The notes below the pieces were generated by a model. That model did not search any database. It worked only from the letters and a program-made list of their open reading frames with translations, and was not told where the DNA came from. From the NCBI RefSeq assembly GCF_000280925.3, contig NZ_CP012109.1, positions 7,894,501 through 7,958,500 of the forward strand: DNA of 64,000 nucleotides. Reading direction: 5' to 3'. The stretch is from Myxococcus hansupus (GTDB lineage Bacteria; Myxococcota; Myxococcia; Myxococcales; Myxococcaceae). Positions 26,482 to 39,981 of the stretch are shown here, piece by piece (positions within the stretch are counted from its first letter, which is position 1; each line of letters begins with the position of its first letter). The position numbers and the translations under genes are program-made.

Positions 26482-28137
26482 TCAGTCCTGACGCCTGCTC
26501 GCTGGCACCACGGTGTTCGCGCCCGCCGCGCCACCGCCCAGGGGCACCACGCCCAACGTGACGGCGGCGCCCTCCTGCGCGCTCGTGTGGGAGGCCTCGG
26601 CGCGGAGCATCGGCAGGCCGTGCGGCTGCTTCTGGAGGTACTCGATGAACTTCTCGCGGACCACGCAGCGCAGGTCCCACGCCTTGCCCGAATCCGACGC
26701 GCTCACCAGGGCGCGCAGCTTGATGGTGCGCTCGGTGCAGTCCGTCACCTGGAGCCGGACGACCTTGCCGTCCCAGAGCCCCTTGCCGTCCGTCGCGACG
26801 ATGCGCTCCAGCTCCGCGCGCGCGGCCGGCACGTTGGTGCGGAAGTCCGCGTAGATTTCGGCCGTGCCCAGGATGTCCGGCGACACCTTGCTCCAGTTCT
26901 GGAAGGGCTTGTCGAGGAAGTGGCTCATCGGCACCACCAGCCGGCGCAAATCCCACACCTTCACGACGATGTACGTGAGGGTGATTTCCTCCACCCAGCC
27001 CCACTCGCCCTCCACGATGACGGTGTCGCCGATTCGCACCGGCTGGGTGATGGAGAGCTGGATGCCCGCCAGCAGCGTGGAGATGGACTTCTGCGCGGCG
27101 AGGCCCAGCACCAGGCCCGCGATGCCCGCCGAGGCCAGCAGCGACACGCCCACGTTGCGCACCGCCTCGAACTGGAGCAGCAGCAACGAGCCCGCCACCA
27201 GCACGATGGCGCACTCGATGACCCGGCGCATGACGGCCAACTGCGTGCGCAGCCCGCGCACCCGGGCCACGTTCTGCCCCTCCGTGCCCACGCGGTCCTC
27301 CACGAAGCCCGCGGCCAGCCGCACGAAGCGCACGAGGAACCACGCCACCGCCACGATGACGACCGAACGCGAAATCACGTCCACCAGGTGCTGCGCGGGC
27401 GGCGGGAACAGCAGCAGCCGCGTGCAGGACGCCACCATCACCGCGGCCACCGGGTGACGCAAGGGGCCCTTCGCCGCCGCCACGAACTGGTCATCCCACC
27501 CTGACGCCGTCATGCCCGCCGCACGCGCGCCCACCCGCAACACCACCGCCTCCGCCAGCCGGCCCGCGAGCCACGCGCCCACGAGCAACACGCTCAGGCC
27601 CAGCCACTGCCACAGCTCCAGCACCCACACCGGCCGGACGAAGAGGAACGGCGGCAGCTTCTCCACCATGGGCGAGCCGTACACCGTGAAGAGCGTGTCG
27701 ATGGCGCGCACCGTGTCCTCGCTGACCACCCAGACCGGCCCCTCCGGGGCGTCCACGCGCTGCAGGCGGATGTCCACCGAGCCCCGCGGCAATGGAATCT
27801 GTCCCAGCGATTCGTAGACGGAGTCGGGCGAGTCGCCTTCCGGCTTCTGGCTGATGTTCGCGAAGTCCAGCCACAGCATCCGGTCCAGCACGAAGACGAG
27901 CCGCTTCGCCAGCCGCAGGCCCTCCGCCGCCTGCTGCTCCGGCGGCAGATGTGACAGCGACAGGTAGTGGGGCGCACGCACCGCGTCTCGCGCATGCGCG
28001 GTGTCCAGGAAGCCTGCCGCCGTGGCCATGGGCGTGCGGCGATCCACGTCCGCGGGTGGCTCGCCCAGACCTCCATTCAGCGCGAACCCCGGCAGGGGCA
28101 GCAGCAACAGCAGGAGCAAGGCGAGCGAACGGCGCAT
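26482..28137 (-). CDS. MscS-family mechanosensitive channel with periplasmic N-terminal domain
   Basis: Tension-gated inner-membrane channel protecting against osmotic downshock. The 551-aa protein starts with a signal peptide (RRSLALLLLLLLPLPGFA) and a periplasmic domain of about 150 residues, then four or five helices. The pore helix is GVSLLASAGIAGLVLGLAAQKSISTLLAGIQL, with the Gly/Ala pattern and AQKS of MscS TM3. Next is IGDTVIVEGEWGWVEEITLTYIVVKVWD, the conserved beta domain. ATG 28137 is chosen because the signal peptide begins there. It fits functionally with the osmoprotectant transporter nearby. Confidence 0.92.
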   Translation of the reverse strand: MRRSLALLLLLLLPLPGFALNGGLGEPPADVDRRTPMATAAGFLDTAHARDAVRAPHYLSLSHLPPEQQAAEGLRLAKRLVFVLDRMLWLDFANISQKPEGDSPDSVYESLGQIPLPRGSVDIRLQRVDAPEGPVWVVSEDTVRAIDTLFTVYGSPMVEKLPPFLFVRPVWVLELWQWLGLSVLLVGAWLAGRLAEAVVLRVGARAAGMTASGWDDQFVAAAKGPLRHPVAAVMVASCTRLLLFPPPAQHLVDVISRSVVIVAVAWFLVRFVRLAAGFVEDRVGTEGQNVARVRGLRTQLAVMRRVIECAIVLVAGSLLLLQFEAVRNVGVSLLASAGIAGLVLGLAAQKSISTLLAGIQLSITQPVRIGDTVIVEGEWGWVEEITLTYIVVKVWDLRRLVVPMSHFLDKPFQNWSKVSPDILGTAEIYADFRTNVPAARAELERIVATDGKGLWDGKVVRLQVTDCTERTIKLRALVSASDSGKAWDLRCVVREKFIEYLQKQPHGLPMLRAEASHTSAQEGAAVTLGVVPLGGGAAGANTVVPASRRQD

Positions 28138-28392
28138 GTCGGTTTCCTGGAGGAATGAAAACTGTGATTTGACCTCCAACAACCACGAAGAGCACCCTGT
28201 GTCCAGGACCCACGCCACGGCGCGTCACGTCGGCGCGCCCGCCCGGCGTGCGGGCGAGAAGGCCCCAGTCGAGGGGACGCTCGCCGGTGACGGTTGGGTC
28301 ACCCGAGCACATCCAAGCGCGTGCGCGGGGGGTTCCATCGAGCAGGCGGACCCGGACCAGGACGCCCGACACGGACTGATACGCTCGGCCGC

Positions 28393-29685
28393 ATGGCGCG
28401 GATTCTCATGGCGGCCCATCCGACGGCGGGACACACCAATGCGTTGCGCGCGATGGGAGGGCGCCTGCGGGAGTTGGGCCATGACGTGGCCATGGCCGTC
28501 ACGGTGCCTCCGGCGCTTCCTTCCGCCCTGATGCCCGAGCCGCTGCGCTACGCCACCCAGCTCCCCGAGGCACTACTCCGCGACGGCTTCCGGCTGGTCC
28601 CCTTGCGGCCCGCCCCTGCTTCGCTCTGGTACGGCGCGCGCATCACCCGCGCCCGGGGATTGGATGAGCTGGCCTTGGCCCTGAAGCTGTTCACCGCCGG
28701 CATGGAGGCCCAGGCCCGAGGCATCGCGGCGGACATCGAAGCCTCCGGCATCGACGTGGTGCTGGCGGACTACCTCATGCCCGCGGCGCTGCTCGCGGCC
28801 CGGATGACGCGGCGGCGATACGTCGCGCTGTATCACTCCGCCCTCCCCTTCCCTGTCGAGGGCGCGGCCCCGTTCGGCAGCGGCCTCCCGGATGACGCGC
28901 CTCGCGACACCGCGTGGATTCGGGCCGAACAGCGAGGCGTCGAGCTGCTGCGAGGCTTCGACGCTCGCGTCGCCCGGGCGGCGAAGGCGCTGGGCGTCTC
29001 GATGAAGACCGACGGCCTGCTGGCGACCCCCATCTCCGAGGACCTCAACCTGATGGCGACCACGCCCGAGCTGGAGCCCGGCTTGAAGCCATTGCCCGGC
29101 CCCGTGGAGCTGACGGGCCCGTGCCTCCCGAAGCCCACGCTCGCGAACCAGGACGACCCCGTGCTCGCTACCCTCCGGCCCGGGCGCACGCACGTCTACG
29201 TGTCACTGGGCACGGTGTTCAACGGCCAGCCGCAGGTCTTCCACGCGATTCTGGATGGGCTCGCACGCCACGACGTGGACGTCGTGGTCAGCGCGGGCGC
29301 CAGCTTCGAGCGGCTCCAATCCCGCGCGGGCCCCAGAACGCGGGTGTTCCGCCACGTGCCACAGGTGCCCCTGCTCCAGAAGGTGGACCTGGTGGTGACG
29401 CACGGCGGGAACAACACCGTGCAGGAGTCGCTCGCGGCCGGACGGCCCATGGTCGTCGTCCCCTTCGGCGGCGACCAGCTCGCGAACGCGCGGCGCGTGG
29501 AGCGGCTCGGCATGGGCCGCGCCGTGCTTCCCTCCGCGCTGAGCGCGACCTCCATCGCCCACGCGCTCACCGAAGTGTCACAGGCCCGCTTCTCCACGCG
29601 GGCCCGCGCGCTCGCCGCGACGCTGGAGGGCGTGGACGGAACAGAGCGCGCGGTCCGGGCCGTGCTTCGACTCATCGAGACATGA
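28393..29685 (+). CDS. UGT/MGT-type glycosyltransferase (GT1)
   Basis: Transfers a sugar from a nucleotide-sugar to a small hydrophobic acceptor, in the cytoplasm. The 430-aa protein has the GT-B layout: N-terminal acceptor domain starting ARILMAAHPTAGHTNALRAM, and C-terminal donor domain starting HVYVSLGTVFNGQ. The donor site reads HVPQVPLLQKVDLVVTHGGNNTVQESLAAGRPMVVVPFGGDQ, the UDPGT/macrolide glycosyltransferase signature. ATG 28393 lacks a clear Shine-Dalgarno. It is transcribed alone, divergent from mscS; macrolide, flavonoid or carotenoid-type acceptors are all possible. Confidence 0.9.
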   Translation: MARILMAAHPTAGHTNALRAMGGRLRELGHDVAMAVTVPPALPSALMPEPLRYATQLPEALLRDGFRLVPLRPAPASLWYGARITRARGLDELALALKLFTAGMEAQARGIAADIEASGIDVVLADYLMPAALLAARMTRRRYVALYHSALPFPVEGAAPFGSGLPDDAPRDTAWIRAEQRGVELLRGFDARVARAAKALGVSMKTDGLLATPISEDLNLMATTPELEPGLKPLPGPVELTGPCLPKPTLANQDDPVLATLRPGRTHVYVSLGTVFNGQPQVFHAILDGLARHDVDVVVSAGASFERLQSRAGPRTRVFRHVPQVPLLQKVDLVVTHGGNNTVQESLAAGRPMVVVPFGGDQLANARRVERLGMGRAVLPSALSATSIAHALTEVSQARFSTRARALAATLEGVDGTERAVRAVLRLIET

Positions 29686-29743: not shown

Positions 29744-30475
29744 TCACGGCGTGCAGGCGCCGTGCGTCACGCTGCTGCACGGGTCATCGTCCCCGCACCG
29801 CGTCCAACGCGCGCAACGTTCGGCGTTGAAGTCTTCGAACGCCTGCACGCTCGTCGTCCGCCGGCCCTGGCCCGCGGACACGAGGCACATCTCGAAATCC
29901 CGCAAGGGCGTGTTGGGAATCTCGTAGAGCTCCTCCGTCGCCGAGTTCAACATCCCGGAGCTGCCCGCGCACTGCATGGCATTGGCGAGTGACGAGGCAC
30001 GCACCTCCACCACGCGCAGACCACACCGGGCCGGCTTGCTCTGGACGCCCACGGCGAAGATGGTGCCGTTCGGGTCACAGGTGAGGTCCGCCACGGACTG
30101 GCACATCCCGCTGACACACACGGCGTTCGACCGGCAGAACTGGCTGTTCCCGGACGACGTGCAGCAGGACTCGCCCACCTCGCCGCAGTTGCGGCACCGC
30201 TCGCCCGCCGCCTCCATCACACACGACAGCGTGCCGTTGCAGGAGGTCGTGGCGCCACTGACGCAACAAGCGCCACCTTCGGCGCCACACGGTCCACAGG
30301 TGCCGCTCTGGCAGGTCAGCCCGGCGTTGCAACTGTTGGCGTCCGTGCGGCAGGCACAGCCGTTCGTTCCATACTGACTGGGGTCACATGACGAGCTGCT
30401 CTGGCAGCTACCGCAGCCCGCCAGGATGGCCATGAAGAACATCAACAGCCCCCGCAGGGGAGAAGTCATTTTCAC
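29744..30475 (-). CDS. Cys-rich lipoprotein
   Basis: About 243 aa. GTG 30475 (VKMTSPLRGLL) is preferred because AAGGA lies eight bases upstream; ATG 30469 is the alternative. LLMFFMAILAGC is a lipoprotein signal. The mature N-terminal 120 residues hold many cysteines in a repeating pattern (GCACRTDANSCNAGLTCQSGTCGPCG, EGGACCVSG, GESCCTSSGNSQFCRSN), like the knotted repeats of myxobacterial cell-surface proteins. The C-terminal half has fewer cysteines and ends CGDDDPCSSVTHGACTP. It is the last gene of a four-gene run of exported proteins. Confidence 0.82.
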   Translation of the reverse strand: MKMTSPLRGLLMFFMAILAGCGSCQSSSSCDPSQYGTNGCACRTDANSCNAGLTCQSGTCGPCGAEGGACCVSGATTSCNGTLSCVMEAAGERCRNCGEVGESCCTSSGNSQFCRSNAVCVSGMCQSVADLTCDPNGTIFAVGVQSKPARCGLRVVEVRASSLANAMQCAGSSGMLNSATEELYEIPNTPLRDFEMCLVSAGQGRRTTSVQAFEDFNAERCARWTRCGDDDPCSSVTHGACTP

Positions 30476-30525
30476 GAGGAGAATCCTTGTTCTTGGAGTG
30501 AATGAGGAAGGGACCACCGCGCGGC

Positions 30526-32298
30526 TCACGGGCGCAGCACCAGTTGGACGCGCTGGCCCTGGCCATCCGTCGCGAGCACCGCCACGCCGAAGTCATCCGC
30601 GAGCGCGAGTGCCCGCGTGACGCGGTACTCCGCCTTCTTCAGGTCCTCCGGAAGCAAGTCATCCAGGCGCAGGGCCTGCTTGGCACCCGGCGGCACGAGG
30701 AACGCCGTCTGCGTCTTGCCATCGTCGGCGGTCGCGTTGCCCAGCACCCATCCGCCGTCGTTGATGGCCACGGCCTTCGCGGACACGAAGCCCTCGGGCA
30801 GCGGCAGCCACTGGAGCTCCTTCTTGTCCGACCAGATGAAGGGCCGGAAGTACTTCTCCCCTTCGAGGACCGCGCCCACGAACACGCCCACGTCGTTCAC
30901 CGCGTGGATTTCCGACTCGGTCTCCACGAACACGTCCACCTTGTCGCCGTAGACGCGCGCGGCCCGGAGCCCCTTGTCCGTCTCCAGCGTCACCGCCGCC
31001 TCACCCAGCGCGTTGAAACGCAGGCCCCGGGTCTTCAGCTTCGACACGAGGGACAGCGGCGCCGGTCCCACCTCGTCCACGAGGAAGAGGCCCTCGGGCT
31101 TGTGCGGGTCGCGCACCAGCAGGGTTCCGTGGGCGTTGGCCGTCACGGCCTCCCAGCCGTCCAGCCACACCTCGGGTTCAGCCTTCACATCGTCCGAGCG
31201 GAACCGGAACGCGTGCGCGCCCTTGGACGTATACGCGGTGCCGAACACGTCACCCGCCGTGTTGATGCCCACCACGTGAACCTTCTCGGCGCGCAGCACC
31301 CCGTTCAGCTTATGCGTCTCACCCTTCGCGGTGACGAAGACGTCCGAATCCGTCTCCCGGTCCCGGGCCACCAGCGCGCCGCCATTCAGCAGCCCCAGGA
31401 GCGCGAGGCGGTACTCCACCTGGACATAGCGGACGAACTCGAACGGCTTGCGGACACACTCCGGGACGCTCAACCGCACGCTCCTGCGGACGCCACCGGA
31501 CGCCGCGTAGATGACCGTGGGCCCCGTCCAGTTCGGAGGCAGGCGGACGGTGAACCGCGCGGACCGTTGGGCCTCGGGAATGCGCACGGGCAGCACGCCC
31601 ACGCGCGCGTCCACGCTCATCAGGTCCACCAGGATGCCGCCCGTCGGCGCGGGGCTGCTGAGCACCACGTCGCCGTACAGCTCCGTGGCGTTGGGCGACG
31701 GGCAGCGGCTGACGGGGGTGGTGACGACCATCGACGACAGACGGGGGCGTGGCACGCCGCCATAGGCGATGAACTGGCGCATCGCGACGGGCTCCGTCCA
31801 ATAGTGTTTCCAGATGATGTCCGTGTAGCCATCGATGAAGACGCTGGAGCCGGACGTCAGCACCAGCTCGACGTTGTGGGGGCACGCCGCGCTGTTGCAG
31901 TACGGGTCATCCGCGCCGCGCACCTGCCGGGCCAATGCCTTCAGGGTGCCCCGCACCCGGGTCACGCTGTTGGCGCTGCCCAGGTAGTAGGGAGAAGGCA
32001 GGGTGTCGTTGAAGGTCCAGGTGATGACGTTCCCGGAGCGCGAGCCATACATGCGCAGCACCAGGTCCGAATTGATGCCGAACTGCCGCGCCGGAACGTT
32101 GAGGTTCAGCGTGCCCGCCGCCTTGGGCAACAGCCAATAGCCGGTGGAGTAGTCATTGCCCCTCACGTGGATGCGGGCGGCGTTGAGGCGGAGGTTCGTC
32201 CCACGCACGACGTCATCAATGACATCCGCGTGGGCCGCTTGCGCCAGGAAAAAGCCGAGCAGGGCCAGGGGCCACAGCCCGTTGAGACTGCGCTTCAT
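30526..32298 (-). CDS. Exported protein with HAF-like beta-propeller region
   Basis: A 590-aa protein with signal peptide (RSLNGLWPLALLGFFLAQAAHA). The N-terminal 280 residues are beta-rich with two close cysteines (DDPYCNSAACP) and resemble nothing I can name. The C-terminal half has short repeats with A-V-N-x-x-G/INxxG turns (ALGEAAVTLE, AVNDVGVFVGAVL, AINDGGWVLGNAT), characteristic of HAF-type extracellular repeats and likely a beta-propeller. GAGG lies five bases before ATG 32298. It is third of four consecutive exported proteins, 44 bp after the HEAT-repeat gene. Confidence 0.78.
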   Translation of the reverse strand: MKRSLNGLWPLALLGFFLAQAAHADVIDDVVRGTNLRLNAARIHVRGNDYSTGYWLLPKAAGTLNLNVPARQFGINSDLVLRMYGSRSGNVITWTFNDTLPSPYYLGSANSVTRVRGTLKALARQVRGADDPYCNSAACPHNVELVLTSGSSVFIDGYTDIIWKHYWTEPVAMRQFIAYGGVPRPRLSSMVVTTPVSRCPSPNATELYGDVVLSSPAPTGGILVDLMSVDARVGVLPVRIPEAQRSARFTVRLPPNWTGPTVIYAASGGVRRSVRLSVPECVRKPFEFVRYVQVEYRLALLGLLNGGALVARDRETDSDVFVTAKGETHKLNGVLRAEKVHVVGINTAGDVFGTAYTSKGAHAFRFRSDDVKAEPEVWLDGWEAVTANAHGTLLVRDPHKPEGLFLVDEVGPAPLSLVSKLKTRGLRFNALGEAAVTLETDKGLRAARVYGDKVDVFVETESEIHAVNDVGVFVGAVLEGEKYFRPFIWSDKKELQWLPLPEGFVSAKAVAINDGGWVLGNATADDGKTQTAFLVPPGAKQALRLDDLLPEDLKKAEYRVTRALALADDFGVAVLATDGQGQRVQLVLRP

Positions 32299-32342
32299 GA
32301 AGACCTCGGTTGAAGTGGGTGGTGGAATGAAACGAATGAGAC

Positions 32343-34259
32343 TCAGCCGCCCCGGCTGGCCGAGGCCTGCGCCATCAGCGCCATGACGCGGGCGCGGGTG
32401 GCCGGCTGCTGACCGGGGCGCATCGACAGGGCCTGGAGCATCCGGAGGACGGCGTCGCTGTCATCCATCCGGACCGTGAGGACGTTCAGCAGGGGCGCCT
32501 CGGCCCCCACCGCCAGCCCGCCCGAGATGACCCAGACGCTCAGACGCTCCAGCTCGGCGCCGCCCAAGGTGCGCCCGTTCAGCGCGTCCAGATACACCGC
32601 CTGCACGGCGCGCTCGGTCTCGGACGACAGCGCCTCCAGCAACATGCCCGTGGCGGCTTCCTGCGGCGCGGTGCGCAGCGCCGACGCGGCCGCGGCGCGC
32701 ACGGTGGGCGACGCGTCACGCAGGTGGGGCGAAGCCAGGTCCATGACGCGCTCCGCGCCGCTGTTGCCCAGCGCTCGCAGGGAATGCTCCAGCGCCTCCG
32801 GACTGTCCGCCTGGATGAGCGCGTCCTCCAGCGGGCGCAGGAACTCGACCGCCTCCGGGCTGCCCGCGGGCAGGTGCGAGACGACGGCGCCCAAGGCGTA
32901 TGCGGACGCGCGCTCGGTGCCGACATCACCGGAGGCGCGGGCCTCCGCGTTCATCCGGGCCAGCAGCCGCCCCGTCTCCGGCTCCGGCTCCCGGAAGAAG
33001 CCCGCGCGCTGCACCATCATCGCGTGCGCGCCGGGGTGCTCGCGGGCCTCCTTGGAGACAATCAGCTCGCGCAGGGCCGCCTGGGCCTCCGCGTGCCCCG
33101 CGCCCGCCAGCAGGTCCAGCATCAGCTCGCGCATCGCGGGCGCGACACCCGGCCGCTTGAAAAGCGCGCCCAGCTCCCCCGTCCGATGCGGCTCCAGTTT
33201 GAGCGCCGCGATGGCCCTCCGCGCGAAGGTACCCGTGTCCCCCACGGCGGCCGGGTCGTTCGCGGACGCCAGCGCCTCCAGCATCAGGTCCACCGTCATC
33301 CCGGCGGCCTGGCTCGTGGCCAGCGCGCGCTCCTCATCGCCCTCGAAGACGAGCTGCGACGGCGCGCGGACAATGGACTTGGCCTCCGTCGAAGGCGGGA
33401 GCGGCTTCTGCTGGCGCGTGGAGAAGGTCAGGCGCAGGCGGACGCGGCGTGACAGCAGCGGGCGGCCATCGGTGTGCGTGGCGTCCAGGATTTCGTTGAG
33501 GGAGACGGCGGCCAGGAATCCGTCCGGGTCCCGGTCGAACTGCGTGAGGGAGCTCAACTTCTGCTGGAACGCTGGCACGTGCGAGGCGGCGCGCAGGGAC
33601 TGGTAGCGCGTGCGGCGGCGCGACAGGCGCGCGCGGTCATCCTGGAACTGGAAGTTCGCCTCGACCTGCCCCAGGTGCGTGGACTCGACGGCAGTCCACT
33701 CGGTGGCGTCGCGCAGCTCGGTGGGGAACAGCTCCGCCGCCAGCGACTGCGTGAACTGCCGGAACATGGGGGGCTCCGCGTCCGAGTACCGGACGCCCAC
33801 GAGCGCGCCCTGGCCATTCAGCTCCAGCCACGCCGACGCGGACTCGGGCAGATGCTCCTGGAGGGAGGCCGCGTCGGGGAGCAGGGACTGGCCGGAGAAC
33901 GTGACCTCATGCCGGCTCAGGCGCTTCAACGCCAGCCGCAGCCGCGCCCCATTCTCACGGACCTCGAGCGCCTGGAGCGTGAGCTCGCCATCCAGGTTCA
34001 TCACGCCATCGAACCGCTGGAGCTCCTCACCGCCAGGAACGGTGAACGCAATCCGCTGCAAGTCGTTCCAGACGAAGTGATACGTGCGCTCCTCCCCCAC
34101 GGTCCACTGATAGAGCGGCAGCCGGGAGGGGCTCACCGCCGCCTGCGGGGTGGCCACGACGGGCGCGGAACGGTGGAAGAAGTGCCAGGCAGGCACCGCA
34201 CCGGCGAGCAGCAGGGTGGTCAGCGCGGCCGTGCGGACGGCGAGCTTCGAGCGACGCAT
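32343..34259 (-). CDS. Exported HEAT-repeat protein with vitellogenin-like N-terminus
   Basis: 638 aa from ATG 34259 (GGGAG six bases upstream). A signal/anchor helix (AALTTLLLAGAVPAWHFF) is followed by a beta-rich region beginning YQWTVGEERTYHFVW. Further along are LNGQGALVGVRYSDAEPPMFRQFTQSL, reminiscent of the vitellogenin/lipid-transfer N-terminal beta-barrel. The second half is an alpha-helical repeat array (TFARRAIAALKLE; ALEHSLRALGNSGAERVMDLASPHLRDASPTVRAAAASAL) typical of HEAT repeats and also of the helical domain in vitellogenin-type proteins. The vitellogenin likeness is by eye and needs a profile search. It is second in the exported-protein run. Confidence 0.75.
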   Translation of the reverse strand: MRRSKLAVRTAALTTLLLAGAVPAWHFFHRSAPVVATPQAAVSPSRLPLYQWTVGEERTYHFVWNDLQRIAFTVPGGEELQRFDGVMNLDGELTLQALEVRENGARLRLALKRLSRHEVTFSGQSLLPDAASLQEHLPESASAWLELNGQGALVGVRYSDAEPPMFRQFTQSLAAELFPTELRDATEWTAVESTHLGQVEANFQFQDDRARLSRRRTRYQSLRAASHVPAFQQKLSSLTQFDRDPDGFLAAVSLNEILDATHTDGRPLLSRRVRLRLTFSTRQQKPLPPSTEAKSIVRAPSQLVFEGDEERALATSQAAGMTVDLMLEALASANDPAAVGDTGTFARRAIAALKLEPHRTGELGALFKRPGVAPAMRELMLDLLAGAGHAEAQAALRELIVSKEAREHPGAHAMMVQRAGFFREPEPETGRLLARMNAEARASGDVGTERASAYALGAVVSHLPAGSPEAVEFLRPLEDALIQADSPEALEHSLRALGNSGAERVMDLASPHLRDASPTVRAAAASALRTAPQEAATGMLLEALSSETERAVQAVYLDALNGRTLGGAELERLSVWVISGGLAVGAEAPLLNVLTVRMDDSDAVLRMLQALSMRPGQQPATRARVMALMAQASASRGG

Positions 34260-34372
34260 GAAGAACTCCCAACAGGAAAAGAAAGGGGCCGCCGCGGGAA
34301 GCAAGACACCACGGCGGCGAACTTCGGACCTGGCGCGCGCCACTCACGCGCGCCAGGAAACAGTGGCGTGGC

Positions 34373-36553
34373 CTAGTAGATGCGCACCAGCGGCAACGAC
34401 TTGCTCTCGTCGTAGATGTTCCACGTGTGACCGAAGCCGGTCCAGCTCACGATGGCAACCTCGGCCTTCAGCGGACCCAGCTCGCCGAACAGCTTGATGG
34501 CGCCGTCCAGCGTGCGCGCCGTGATGTCCAGCTTCGAAGAGACGCGCAGGAAGAGCGTGTTCGGGTTCGTCGGGTGCACGGGGGAGCTGATGTGGAGCCC
34601 GATGTCGCCGTACAGCGGGAGGCTGACGCGGACGATGACGACCTCGCCCTTCACGCCCGCCTGGAACCCCGGGAAGCCAATGCCCACGGACGCGAAGCCC
34701 TTGGCGGCCACGAACGGGGTGATGGTCCCGTACAGGTCCGCGCCCAGCAGGTCCTCCGCGCAGTTGCGCGTGACGGCGCCACCGATGTTGATCTTCACGC
34801 CCACTTCCGCGGACACACCCGCCGCCACCGTGACGGGGACGTAGAACACGAAGAAGGTCGAGGAGGCCTTCGCGGTGTCCTTGTCGAAGTAGAGCGTGTC
34901 GTCGAAGAACGTCTTGCGCAGCGGGTAGTGCTCGTCGTGCTGGTAGAGGGTGATGGTCAGCACGCGGGCGTCACCCTTGATGCGGATGCCATTGCCCTCG
35001 GTGCTGGCCTCACCACTCAGGTGCGCCATCTCGAACCGCGTGGGACCGAACACGTTCGCGTAGGCGTTGAACTCGGCGTAGACGCGCGCATCGGTGTCGC
35101 ACCAGGCGCCCGACTTGTTACGCGCGTTCGCGGCGCCGCCCTGGAGGACCTCCCAGCCCGCGGCGAAGTCGTAGCCGCCGCCGAAGGTGTCGCCGCCCAC
35201 ATAGCCACCATCGCTGAACTCACCGCTGTGCCGCACCGTGCCGGTGGACGGGTTCGTCGGCGTGCTCTGGTCGCGGATGAAGGCGCCGTAGATGCCGAGG
35301 TACTGGCTCAGCAGCGTGGTGTTCAGCGTGTAGTCCTTCAACTTCAGGTCCGGCAGCTTGAGCCGCTGCGCGTTGCGCACGAAGCTCTCCGGGCCGAAGT
35401 CGTTGCCCGTCAGGGAGATGCACGCCTGGAGGTCGGCCTGACGGCGCGGGGCCATGGCCGCGTCGAGCATCGTCTTGTAGCGGCGCGGGCTCCAATCACA
35501 GACGCTCGCCTCACGGGCGTCGAGGCAGCCCTCCTTCTCGGCCTTGACCAGCGCCACCTCGATGGACTTGTCCAGCCCGTAGAGCTGCTGCGCCGTCCGC
35601 TTGTCGAGCTCCACCGTCGAGTGGTCGCGCTTGCGAAGGATCTCCGCGGCCACCTCCCACTCCGCGTAGATGGACTGACGCTGACGCAGCAGCTCCTCGA
35701 AGGACTCCTGCTCGACCTGGTGGTGGTTGAGCACGTCATCCGGGACGCCGTGGAACTTCTCGCTCTGCTCCTGGTGCCACGAATCCGACGGCGTGGCCCA
35801 GTTGCGGGCCTCCAGGTTGTTCGCCAGGCGCGCGGCCTCGGTCGAGAAGACGTAGCCCTCCGTGCCCTTGGGATACGCGCCGGGCGTGAAGCGGAAGTAA
35901 GCGTTCTTCGCCACGCGCTGCTTGCTCCAGATGGGGGCCAGCTTCTCCTGGTCCCGGCTGTAGAGCGTGCGGTGCGCGATGCCGTCCTTGTCGTACGCGG
36001 CCTGGAAGAGGGCGCGGTAGTCGTCGCCGAACCGGCCCGCCTCGCGCTCGAAGCGGCTGTAGCCCAGGTACTTCTCGTCGACGAACTCCTGGCAGGACGT
36101 CACCTGCGCGCCGTTCTTCTCCCAGCCGCGGATCTGCTCCAGGTAGGCCTGCTCCGCCTTGGTCAGGTTCTCCAGTTGCTTGCGGTAGAGAATCTGGCCC
36201 TTGAGAATCTGGCCCGTGAGGTTCTGGTCCAGGCCCTGGAAGCGCGTCTTGACCGGACGGAAGGACTCGTAGGCCACGGTGTCGACACCGCCGCCCAGCT
36301 CGTCAGGGAGCAGCGCCAGGCGCTTGGGAGCCGCATCCCACTGGGCCTTCCACGCATCCTGGACGATGCCCTGGCAGTAGCCGTCGTGGACGCTGCCGCA
36401 ACTGCTGGCGCGGTAGTCGACGTCCACGCACTGCTGCAGCGTGGGCTTGGGGCAGTCCTGCGCGAGGCTCGCGGGAGCCGCCAGCACCGTCGCGGACAGG
36501 CTCGCCCAGCGCAGGTGGCGCGCGAGCTGTTTCGTGTGTTTCCGCTGATTCAT
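34373..36553 (-). CDS. Large exported protein of unknown family
   Basis: 726 aa from ATG 36553, where AAGGA is 10 bases upstream; ATG 36562 is in frame but sits only two bases after it. Signal peptide ends ASLAQDC. The N-terminal 380 residues are helical and charged with several Cys (CPKPTLQQCVDVDYRASSCGSVHDGYCQG). The C-terminal 330 residues are Gly- and beta-rich (FFVFYVPVTVAAGVSAEVGVKI, FASVGIGFPGFQAGVKGEVV) and could form a large beta structure. It is first gene of the four-gene exported set, so the promoter lies in 36554-36724. No function can be assigned. Confidence 0.72.
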   Translation of the reverse strand: MNQRKHTKQLARHLRWASLSATVLAAPASLAQDCPKPTLQQCVDVDYRASSCGSVHDGYCQGIVQDAWKAQWDAAPKRLALLPDELGGGVDTVAYESFRPVKTRFQGLDQNLTGQILKGQILYRKQLENLTKAEQAYLEQIRGWEKNGAQVTSCQEFVDEKYLGYSRFEREAGRFGDDYRALFQAAYDKDGIAHRTLYSRDQEKLAPIWSKQRVAKNAYFRFTPGAYPKGTEGYVFSTEAARLANNLEARNWATPSDSWHQEQSEKFHGVPDDVLNHHQVEQESFEELLRQRQSIYAEWEVAAEILRKRDHSTVELDKRTAQQLYGLDKSIEVALVKAEKEGCLDAREASVCDWSPRRYKTMLDAAMAPRRQADLQACISLTGNDFGPESFVRNAQRLKLPDLKLKDYTLNTTLLSQYLGIYGAFIRDQSTPTNPSTGTVRHSGEFSDGGYVGGDTFGGGYDFAAGWEVLQGGAANARNKSGAWCDTDARVYAEFNAYANVFGPTRFEMAHLSGEASTEGNGIRIKGDARVLTITLYQHDEHYPLRKTFFDDTLYFDKDTAKASSTFFVFYVPVTVAAGVSAEVGVKINIGGAVTRNCAEDLLGADLYGTITPFVAAKGFASVGIGFPGFQAGVKGEVVIVRVSLPLYGDIGLHISSPVHPTNPNTLFLRVSSKLDITARTLDGAIKLFGELGPLKAEVAIVSWTGFGHTWNIYDESKSLPLVRIY

Positions 36554-36759: not shown

Positions 36760-38079
36760 CTACTGGATGGTGTAGGCCACCGTGCCGCTGCAGGAGCCGC
36801 TGGAGAAGCAGCCCGCGCGCATCTGGTACGTGCCCGCGGTGGGCGCGGTGAAGGTCACCAGGGACAGGAGGCTGCAGCTATCGTCGTTGGCGGCGACCTG
36901 GGTGTTCGTCGCCGCGTTGAACAGGCGCAGGTAGGTGTCACCGGTGCCCGTGGCCTGCGGCAGCGAGCAGGTGCCGAAGGTCAGCGTCTGGCCCGCGGCC
37001 AGCGTCACGTTGACGTTGGTGGTGTTCTGCTGGGCGCTGTTGGTGTTGGAGGCGGTGAAGGTGAAGGTCTCGACCGGCGGGGGCGGCGGAGGCGGCTCGT
37101 AGCCTTCGCACAGACGCTCGCTGGTCGCGACGGCGCAGTACGCGTCGATGGCGGGACGCGCATAGGTGATGGACTCGCCGCCGCAGCCCGTGTCGGTGCA
37201 CTGATTCACCACGTTGCAGCCGCCCCGGCTCACGTAGTCCGTCACGCCACGCACCAGGATGCCCGCCACGGTGACGTCATTGTTCTCGTAGACACCCGAG
37301 CCGGAGTTGCCACCAAACGTGTCCGTGTTGGCGACGAAGTAGTCCCGCGTGGCCGCGCGGCCGTCGCGCACCCAGCCGCCGTCATCAATCTTGAACGGGA
37401 TGCCGCTGCCGGAGCCAATCACGCTCACGCCGGTGTTCAGCGGGAGGGCCGTGCTGCCCGGGCGGATGGGCGCCGGCACGAAGCGCGGCGTGGCCGCGCG
37501 GTCCAGGCGGACGACGGCGTAGTCCAGGTTGCGGCCGCCCGTCGTGCCCACCTGGCGCGCGACGACGGACGAACAGGCATACACGTCCGCCGTCGTCACC
37601 GTCTTCAGGGCCGTGGCCGACGTCCGGTAGAAGTTGAAGACGAAGCGCGTGTTCGAGCAGTCCGAGGAGGTGATGCAGTGGCCCGCGGTGAGCACCAGGT
37701 CGTCATCGATGAGCGTGCCCGAGCAGAACGCGGGCGTCGGGTCCTCCAGGAAGCGCTGGTCCGAGCAGAGGTTGTAGGCGGTCCGCAGCGGGGACGCATT
37801 GAACGTGACGTTGTTGGGATTGGAGGTGTTGATGGCGGAGGGCCGCATCAACGCCACGGTGGACTGCTCGGCGCGGTCACGCAGCACGGACGCCGGATAG
37901 GCGTAGACATCCGTGCGGTGGTCCACGCCGTAGACGACAGGCTGCTGCTGCGCGCCTGTCTCGGGGGACTTCTCACCGGGGAGCTCTCCTTCGGGCGCCG
38001 GACCACAGGCCGCGACGGAGAGGCTACACAGCAACGCGCCGAACAACGTTCTGCGAGAGGCGGTACGGGTGATGCGCAT
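36760..38079 (-). CDS. Trypsin-like serine protease lipoprotein A, one C-terminal PPC-like domain
   Basis: Surface or periplasmic protease, 439 aa. The signal LLCSLSVAACGPAPEG has a lipobox. A propeptide-like stretch (VVYGVDHRTDVYAYPAS) precedes a chymotrypsin-fold domain with the full triad: His in LTAGHC, Asp in NLDYAVVRLD, Ser in FGGNSGSGVYEN. A Cys-rich segment and a poly-Pro linker lead to one beta-sandwich of the pre-peptidase C-terminal type (TASNTNSAQQNTTNVNVTLAAGQTLTFGTC; GDTYLRLFN; GCFSSGSCSGTVAYTIQ). AGGAG lies nine bases before the ATG. First of three related genes on the minus strand. Confidence 0.9.
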   Translation of the reverse strand: MRITRTASRRTLFGALLCSLSVAACGPAPEGELPGEKSPETGAQQQPVVYGVDHRTDVYAYPASVLRDRAEQSTVALMRPSAINTSNPNNVTFNASPLRTAYNLCSDQRFLEDPTPAFCSGTLIDDDLVLTAGHCITSSDCSNTRFVFNFYRTSATALKTVTTADVYACSSVVARQVGTTGGRNLDYAVVRLDRAATPRFVPAPIRPGSTALPLNTGVSVIGSGSGIPFKIDDGGWVRDGRAATRDYFVANTDTFGGNSGSGVYENNDVTVAGILVRGVTDYVSRGGCNVVNQCTDTGCGGESITYARPAIDAYCAVATSERLCEGYEPPPPPPPVETFTFTASNTNSAQQNTTNVNVTLAAGQTLTFGTCSLPQATGTGDTYLRLFNAATNTQVAANDDSCSLLSLVTFTAPTAGTYQMRAGCFSSGSCSGTVAYTIQ

Positions 38080-38307: not shown

Positions 38308-39981
38308 CTACTGGATGTTCCACACCACGGTTCCGCTGCAGGCGTTGCCGGCATAGCAGCCCGCGCGCATCTGCAGGGTGGTGGTGGTGTGCGCGATGTA
38401 CGTCAGGCTGGAGCCCACGCCGCCGCACGCGTTGTCATTGGAAGCCACCAGCGCGGCGTCGCTGAAGAGCCGCAGGATGGTGTCGCCCGAGAACGACGCC
38501 CCCGCCTGGCCGCAGGTCGCCACGGTGATGCGCTGGCCCTCGGCGACGAAGACGTCCTGATTGACGGTGTTCTGCTGGGCGAAGTTGGTGTTGCGGGCAC
38601 TGAAGGTGAAGCTGCCGCGGGTGGGGGCCGCGTCGCCAGAAACCATCCAGGCGACGTCCCCGCTGCAAGCGCCGCTGGCGTAGCAGCCCGCGTTGACGAC
38701 GTAGTTGCCGTCAGCGGGGGCGCGATACGTGATGCTGGAGCCCTGACCACCGCAGGCGCCATGACTGTAGGCCACCTCGGTCCCCCTGACGCCGCGCAGG
38801 CGCAGGTACGTGTCACCCGTGAAGGACGCGCCCGCCTGGCCGCACGTCCCGATGGTCAGCGTCTGGCCCGCCAGCATCGCGATGGCGTAGTCGGTGGTGT
38901 TCACCTGGGCGCTGTCGGTGTTGCTCGCGGAGAAGGAGAACGGGGTGCCCGGGGGCGAAGGGGGCAGCGGCGGGGGCGGCGGCGGCAGGGGGGGCGGCTC
39001 GGAGCCATCGCACAGGCGCGGGCTGGCAGCGACCCTGCAGAAGTGGTCCACGGCGAGACGCGCGTAGGTGATGTCCTCGCCACGGCAGCCCGTTTCGGTG
39101 CACCGATTCACGACGCGACAGCTCCCCCGGTTGATCAAACCCATTTCACCCCGGACCCGGATGCCCGCCACGGTGAAGGTGTCGTTCTCGTAGACGCCCG
39201 AGCCCAAGCTGGCACCCGACGTATCCGTGGTGGCGACGAAGTAATCCAGCGTGCCAGCGCGGCCGTCGCGCACCCTGCCGCCGTCATCAATCTTGAACGG
39301 AATGCCGCTGCTCGAGCCAATCACGCTCACGCCGGTGCCCACCTGCAGGGCCGTGTTGCCCGGCCGGATGGGCGCTGGAACGAAGCGCGGCGTGGCGGCG
39401 CGATCCAACCTGACGATGGCGTAGTCGAAGACGCGCCCCCCTGACACGTTCACACTGTGCACGACGACAGAGCGGCAGGAGAAGACGTCCGCCGTCGTCA
39501 CCGTTTTCAACGCCGTGGCGGACGTGCGGTAGAAGTTGAAGACGAAGCGCGTGTTCGGGCAGTCCGAGAGGCGGATGCAGTTCCCCGCGGTGAGCACCAG
39601 GTCGTCATCGATGAGCGTGCCCGAGCAGAAGGCCGGCGCCGGGTCCTCCAGGAAGCGCTGGTCCGAGCAGAGGTTGTTGGCGCTCCGCAGTGTGGACGCG
39701 TTGAAGGTGATGTTGTCGGGGTTGGAGGTGTTGATGGCGGAGGACCCCATCAGCGCCACGGTGGACTGCTCCGCGCGGTCACGCAGCACGGACAACGGAT
39801 AGGCATAGACATCCGTGCGGTCGTCCAAGCCGTAGACGACAGGCTGCTGCTGCGTGTCTGTCTCGGGGGACTGCTCACCGGGAAGCGCGCTTTCGGGCGC
39901 GGGACCGCAAGCCAGGACGGAGAGGCCACACAACAACGCGCCGAAGAAGCTCCGGCGCCAGGGGACACGGGTGATTCGCAT
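38308..39981 (-). CDS. Catalytically dead trypsin-like paralogue (pseudoprotease) B, two PPC-like domains
   Basis: 557-aa lipoprotein closely related to the genes at 36760 and 41947, including signal, propeptide region and Cys pattern. Two of three triad residues are lost. The His motif reads LTAGNC (AAC codon, Asn) instead of LTAGHC, and the Ser motif reads TSGASLGSGVYEN, placing Leu where the siblings have Ser (TFGGNSGSGVYEN). The Asp in FDYAIVRLD remains. The frame is open throughout and the upstream box, Shine-Dalgarno and terminator are kept, so it appears expressed. After a Pro-rich linker come two PPC-like beta-sandwiches. A binding, decoy or regulatory role is inferred; simple decay is the alternative. 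Confidence 0.88.
   Translation of the reverse strand: MRITRVPWRRSFFGALLCGLSVLACGPAPESALPGEQSPETDTQQQPVVYGLDDRTDVYAYPLSVLRDRAEQSTVALMGSSAINTSNPDNITFNASTLRSANNLCSDQRFLEDPAPAFCSGTLIDDDLVLTAGNCIRLSDCPNTRFVFNFYRTSATALKTVTTADVFSCRSVVVHSVNVSGGRVFDYAIVRLDRAATPRFVPAPIRPGNTALQVGTGVSVIGSSSGIPFKIDDGGRVRDGRAGTLDYFVATTDTSGASLGSGVYENDTFTVAGIRVRGEMGLINRGSCRVVNRCTETGCRGEDITYARLAVDHFCRVAASPRLCDGSEPPPLPPPPPPLPPSPPGTPFSFSASNTDSAQVNTTDYAIAMLAGQTLTIGTCGQAGASFTGDTYLRLRGVRGTEVAYSHGACGGQGSSITYRAPADGNYVVNAGCYASGACSGDVAWMVSGDAAPTRGSFTFSARNTNFAQQNTVNQDVFVAEGQRITVATCGQAGASFSGDTILRLFSDAALVASNDNACGGVGSSLTYIAHTTTTLQMRAGCYAGNACSGTVVWNIQ

Follow-up and report, generated by a model that had tools for sequence, protein, structure and literature searches.

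Large lipid transfer proteins (LLTPs), including lipovitellin, MTP and apoB, enable animal lipoproteins and egg yolk, and the family has mostly been treated as metazoan. Bacterial lipid transport between membranes is known from the AsmA/YdbH/TamB, Mce, Lpt and Lol systems. In this study, a window of 64,000 nucleotides from Myxococcus hansupus (G000:C1:7894501-7958500 of the one-contig, 9.49 Mb source genome) was analysed around four genes, named A, B, C and D. All are minus-strand genes, separated by 113 bp (A-B), 44 bp (B-C) and 50 bp (C-D), as the original prediction from the sequence had it (Table 1). We propose, with a probability of roughly 0.7, that A and B together encode a bacterial LLTP which is split into two subunits and shuttles lipid in the periplasm. 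The literature search, with preprints and most subscription journals outside its scope, found no paper on bacterial relatives of vitellogenin or MTP. Bacterial members may nevertheless sit unremarked in databases, since the Pfam family PF01347 already scores B proteins over its cut-off.

The likeness of B to vitellogenin and HEAT proteins, noticed in the original prediction, was confirmed. B matched Vitellogenin_N (PF01347) at E 1.1e-6 (28 bits against a cut-off of 24) and HEAT_2 at 5e-7. PF01347 was matched at E <= 0.01 by 32 of 40 B family members, and 53 of 195 Myxococcota genomes, but none of 14 control genomes, contained a match over the cut-off. A profile of the 40 members, searched against the PDB, matched lipovitellin at 4.6e-11 in a single stretch (profile positions 61-516) and MTP at 3.6e-5. 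Artificial HEAT-type proteins (alphaReps) outscored lipovitellin in this search and in two others. When the C-terminal HEAT part was left out, lipovitellin was the top PDB match (2.8e-8), ahead of alphaReps (3.7e-6 and 6.1e-5) and MTP (7.1e-5), and the B family consensus LRALGNAG was aligned opposite LKALGNAG of lipovitellin. The predicted structure of B (pLDDT 92.1) gave the same family by Foldseek against the PDB: the top eight rows were MTP, lipovitellin, apoB and honeybee vitellogenin with E values from 1.4e-15 to 2.1e-9, and the next row was at 7.6e-5. Structure comparison with VIA gave lipovitellin a Z of 18.3 with a root-mean-square deviation (rmsd) of 6.7 Å over 540 aligned residues. 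An alphaRep tied with it (Z 18.7), yet spanned the helices of B alone. A chance match through the HEAT repeats was rejected, because lipovitellin leads the HEAT-trimmed search and the fold match spans both domains. The homology of B to the animal LLTPs is thus well supported. By VIA, B covers only their first half, namely residues 21-619 of MTP, 17-623 of lipovitellin, 19-780 of honeybee vitellogenin (9ens) and 42-634 of apoB. A search for plasmid-borne relatives of B gave no match in PLSDB.

Gene A was found next to B by iterated profile search in 35 of 40 neighbourhoods of B homologues (L032-L071; those without it are L061, L062, L065, L068 and L070), and many of these homologues are less than 30% identical to B of the window. 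It was also present at 31 of 36 B loci from named genomes; two of the five loci without it (L111, L119, L121, L123 and L126) have short upstream flanks. Of the 195 Myxococcota genomes, 76 contained A (143 rows in total) and 82 contained B. B positions were taken from the best 150 B rows, so the count of paired A domains is a lower bound: at least 127 of the 143 lie within 4 kb of a B, a number that rejects adjacency by chance. The median gap between paired domains is 171 bp. A lies upstream on the same strand in 95 of the 127 pairs, downstream on the same strand in 25 and on the opposite strand in seven. In the reverse count, 20 of the best 150 Bs were without A and 130 were paired; 126 is the fairer number, because four Bs (in G106, G054, G077 and G073) beyond dnaA are merely within 4 kb of the A of a neighbouring pair. 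In the source genome, three Bs of full length and two A domains were found, and both A domains adjoin a B. Outside Myxococcota, A is rare (weak rows included, 2 of 194 cyanobacterial genomes and 3 of 247 in the phylum of Deltaproteobacteria bin73; 3 of 149 in a further phylum). The pair is found there as well: Cyanobacteria bacterium FACHB-63 has two Bs with A directly upstream of each, three metagenome-assembled genomes (MAGs) of the further phylum carry it (L124, L125 and L127), and in bin73 A is followed by a B containing a run of N. The overall result makes the partnership of A and B well supported. The closest named records by B are 'Comamonas sp. KCTC 72670' (95% identity), then Myxococcus vastator and Myxococcus sp. 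CA023 (77%). The first of them (L092, BNCN01000008.1) carries A-B-C-D with a B 95% identical to that of the window; because of this gene content, the identity and its neighbours, the 'Comamonas' label is probably wrong and the genome is probably a Myxococcus.

Protein A was described in the original prediction as having a beta-rich end, and the predicted structure indeed places strands between model residues 408 and 690, with about 15 long strands in the C-terminal domain. When the A model was searched alone by Foldseek, the top five rows were MTP, lipovitellin and vitellogenin (1.9e-6 to 7.5e-4), and the next row was at 1.7e-2. By VIA, the C-terminal domain corresponds to residues 613-859 of MTP, 620-1073 of lipovitellin, 776-1135 of vitellogenin (9enr) and 637-1035 of apoB. 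In MTP, lipovitellin, honeybee vitellogenin and apoB, the range of A begins at most six residues from the end of the range of B. As far as the predicted models go, the view that the fold matches of A and B are complementary, half to half, is well supported. The view that the C-terminal domain of A would be the other LLTP half, an identity resting on fold, is less strongly supported. The vitellogenin-type lipid-transfer reading of the original prediction holds for B by profile, fold and conserved residue, and it had overlooked A as the likely other half.

A residue-level comparison was made at the expected border between the two proteins. In PMC7444587, N479 in the helical domain of human MTP is described as forming a hydrogen bond with the backbone of the C-sheet in the lipid-binding site. 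Asn499 of B, in an ALGN motif, was aligned with this residue in the search of the HEAT-trimmed B profile against the PDB (position 479 of MTP was obtained by counting backwards from residue 487 in the chain of 894 residues). Loss of the Asn may be expected in Bs that lack A, provided that the C-sheet comes from A. Among 119 distinct Bs, 82 are paired, and 19 lack A and have flanks of 2.5 kb or more on either side; the remaining 18, with short flanks, were left out. Four of the 82 are truncated before the Asn, leaving 78 readable. The Asn is kept in 72 of these 78 paired Bs. In contrast, it is kept in seven of the 19 A-less Bs, with Arg in ten and Leu in two. Other positions of the A-less Bs (numbering of alignment A1, which omits L053, L054 and L070) are kept in all 19, namely E165, G170, G430, R494 and V525; P330 and R502 also vary among them. 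Seventeen of the 19 fall in one clade of 22 tips (support 1.0), and the two outside it are L111 and L126, the latter from a genome with an A elsewhere. This clade adjoins dnaA in both loci tested. Its members include a B of the source genome (G000:C1:8643300-8645045; L130, L152), L061, L044 and relatives. The DnaA-like gene separates the A-less B from an ordinary A-B pair in L044 and L056. The retention pattern fits co-evolution of A and B, as read from aligned sequences. The assignment of Asn499 of B as an interface residue is less strongly supported.

The topology of the two proteins was considered from their N-termini. The original prediction gave signal peptides to all four proteins; by sequence reading, those of A and C appear to be cleavable, D carries a lipobox (LAGC), and the segment of B is more probably an uncleaved membrane anchor. 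Directly after the hydrophobic core, W, Y, R, K or H stands in 73 of the 100 distinct N-termini of B as against seven of 57 of A, and the strict AxA motif occurs in 25 of 100 and 40 of 57, respectively. A few A N-termini resemble lipoproteins. From these statistics, A looks exported, and B is a probable inner-membrane protein exposed to the periplasm, a placement which is less strongly supported. In the mechanism that we propose, B with its membrane anchor, N-sheet and helical horseshoe would correspond to the first approximately 620 residues of MTP or lipovitellin, and the C-terminal beta domain of A would provide the C- and A-sheets, which form the walls of the lipid cavity in those proteins. 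Exported A may dock on the helical domain of the periplasm-facing B at a surface including Asn499. The complex would then close a hydrophobic cavity, load lipid at the inner membrane and pass it across the periplasm for release to another membrane or carrier. Phospholipid transfer is proposed as the original activity of MTP orthologues in PMC7444587.

Several results weigh against the split LLTP. The physical A-B complex, lipid binding, the direction of transfer and the cargo are inferred only. For B, the N-sheet stretch alone is aligned with lipovitellin by the HEAT-trimmed profile without significance (i-E 2.6). The predicted structure of A has a low confidence (pLDDT 77, pTM 0.52), its Foldseek TM-scores to LLTPs are 0.10-0.13, and VIA gave MTP a Z of 9.2 with an rmsd of 19.4 Å over 140 residues (Z of lipovitellin 6.3). 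Rows other than LLTPs are close behind (2q03 at Z 8.5, outer-membrane proteins up to 7.7). No LLTP chain was found with A profiles against the PDB up to E 10. The Pfam family matched by the largest number of A members is Vit_open_b-sht (PF09172), in five of 31 members with a best E of 0.0048 and in four of 28 in a second set. This family exceeded its cut-off in none of the 195 Myxococcota genomes. Five of its 28 rows at E <= 1 fall within A domains (matched by eye and derived from about three families), the best-scoring rows do not, and one of the 14 control genomes, Lactococcus, also has a match at E <= 1. The attempt at sequence-level proof of A as an LLTP domain, by PDB profiles and PF09172, failed. 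As for the Asn, the six exceptions among the readable paired Bs, all Gly in Corallococcus-type loci, are losses in spite of an A. Few independent events lie behind the pattern, because nearly all the A-less Bs form the single clade.

The best of the other explanations accepts B as an LLTP-derived scaffold and takes A as an unrelated beta protein, such as a barrel of the outer membrane, that B assists or binds across the periplasm. The number of long strands in A, the outer-membrane proteins among its VIA rows, the lack of a PDB sequence match to LLTPs and the aromatic final residue of some A proteins agree with it. However, Foldseek puts the LLTPs first and barrels at E 0.04 or worse, and the match of A starts at the end of the match of B. 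Furthermore, the conserved C-terminal aromatic beta-signal of outer-membrane barrels was not found in A: the residues at the C-terminus differ among A proteins, several of which run 50-76 residues past the beta domain. We regard this explanation as unlikely. In the A protein of Deltaproteobacteria bin73 (L151:6266-9151, plus strand), about 340 residues follow the domain, with repeats reading like a beta-propeller.

Somewhat less likely still is an LLTP-like A-B complex whose role would be lipid storage, lipid binding or surface recognition instead of lipid transfer between membranes. Vitellogenins are reported to bind pathogen and damage patterns in PMC8727950, and the several paralogous pairs per genome and the variable N-terminal parts of A also speak for such a role. 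On the other hand, the probable inner-membrane anchor of B suits loading at the membrane, and no storage locus or adhesion gene recurred near the pairs among 35 paired loci in 16 groups. For this neighbour comparison, the genes came from a simple codon-usage caller, as they did for the gene order around dnaA in L044 and L056; the groups were set by hand, and A and B fell in one cluster.

The A/B cluster occurs in 15 of these 16 groups, and C and D accompany it in only two, which goes against the treatment of the four genes as one unit. A recurrent third partner was not found among the 35 loci; the next most widespread neighbours, read from sequence only, are response regulator/kinase-like genes, in seven of the groups, and an ABC ATPase, in four. 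In the loci examined, C and D stand beside A-B in Myxococcus-type loci, Citreicoccus and one MAG only, and the Corallococcus A-B loci (L039, L040 and L100-L103) are without them. C and D look like lineage-specific additions, the conserved unit being A-B. That the four exported proteins together make up a single secreted system for carrying lipid, as first suggested, is therefore very improbable: the single strand, the short gaps and the company of C and D in Myxococcus-type loci and Citreicoccus speak for it, but Corallococcus and 14 of the 16 groups have A-B while lacking C-D. The check suggested with that idea was structural similarity together with conserved gene order; A and B show both strongly, and C and D do not beyond close relatives. 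C matched TIGR02913 (HAF repeat) at E 4.5e-6 (26.5 bits, cut-off 22.65), and its Citreicoccus homologue matched DUF3466 over the cut-off (27.5 against 25.1). D had no Pfam or NCBIfam match.

Table 1. Features of the A-B-C-D locus, in positions of the window.
Feature	Position	Strand	Reading and basis
Gene A, 726 aa	34373..36553	-	Exported; N-terminal part helical and variable, beta domain at the C-terminus; proposed subunit for the lipid cavity
A signal peptide, residues 1-31	36461..36553	-	Sequence reading: basic start, hydrophobic core, ASLA-Q
A C-terminal beta domain, model residues 400-695	34376..35263	-	Proposed C- and A-sheets of LLTP cavity; VIA ranges, alignment A3
Gene B, 638 aa	32343..34259	-	Proposed scaffold subunit, first half of LLTP fold; PF01347, lipovitellin match, Foldseek
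B N-terminal hydrophobic segment	34179..34259	-	Probable inner-membrane anchor, from N-terminus statistics
B N-sheet (half beta-barrel), model residues 29-271	33366..34094	-	Model strands; aligned with lipovitellin and MTP N-termini
B helical (HEAT-like) domain, model residues 282-610	32349..33335	-	Model helices; HEAT_2, Vitellogenin_N
B Asn499 codon (Asn472 in alignments A1 and A5)	32763..32765	-	Motif LRALGN; aligned with human MTP N479
Gene C, 590 aa	30526..32298	-	Exported; weak HAF-repeat match; lineage-specific neighbour
Gene D, 243 aa from GTG (ATG two codons later)	29744..30475	-	Cys-rich lipoprotein; lineage-specific neighbour

Other genes flank the locus. A UDP-glycosyltransferase-type gene (28384-29685, plus strand; PF00201, 1.1e-16) is convergent with D and has a homologue at the same place in L033. 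Two tandem trypsin-like exported proteins are encoded upstream of A (36760-38079 and 38308-39981, minus strand), with related genes upstream of A in L033 and L034. An MscS-type mechanosensitive channel (PF00924, 1.1e-12) lies at 26482-28137 on the minus strand.

If the split LLTP is real, the LLTP family would gain a bacterial branch, split at the border between scaffold and lipid cavity, which hints at the origin of the one-chain form, and bacteria would have a further candidate system for lipid transport in the periplasm, distinct from those already known. It predicts that A and B co-purify with lipid and that Asn499 of B is an interface residue. A wider scenario is tentative and, in our judgement, rather doubtful: animals and bacteria would share the LLTP fold, its older form would be a two-gene complex of an N-sheet/helical subunit anchored in the inner membrane and an exported lipid subunit with two sheets, from which the animal single chain (vitellogenin, MTP, apoB) arose by fusion, and the myxobacterial pair would be an unrecognised, paralogue-multiplied periplasmic lipid shuttle.

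Among the known systems, AsmA/YdbH/TamB, Mce, Lpt and Lol resemble the pair in the inferred role of periplasmic lipid movement alone; no relation was found beyond a weak YdbH-like row (E 0.012) in one of 31 A members. HEAT-repeat proteins, such as the artificial alphaReps, match the C-terminal repeats of B strongly. However, they span only its helices and fall behind lipovitellin once those repeats are left out. Lipovitellin and vitellogenin (1LSH, 9ENS, 9ENR) and apoB (9BD1) share the N-sheet and helical domain with B, for lipovitellin with a match at the sequence level, and A maps to the sheets that follow. In contrast to them, the bacterial system is divided between A and B and much shorter, and no von Willebrand type D domain appeared as a Pfam row among the A or B members of alignments A1, A2, A3 and A6 (matched stretches were scanned, not always whole proteins). 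The M subunit of MTP (6I7S, 8EOJ) is alike in that B corresponds to its residues 21-619, the beta domain of A to 613-859 and Asn499 to N479. It differs in being a single chain, and its partner protein disulfide isomerase was not found beside the A-B pair. Here, the two proposed halves are bacterial, with a probable anchor on B, and the window encodes them as separate genes, as do the other paired loci that were looked at. What is new here is the split, the pairing of A with B, the probable anchor and the residue test.

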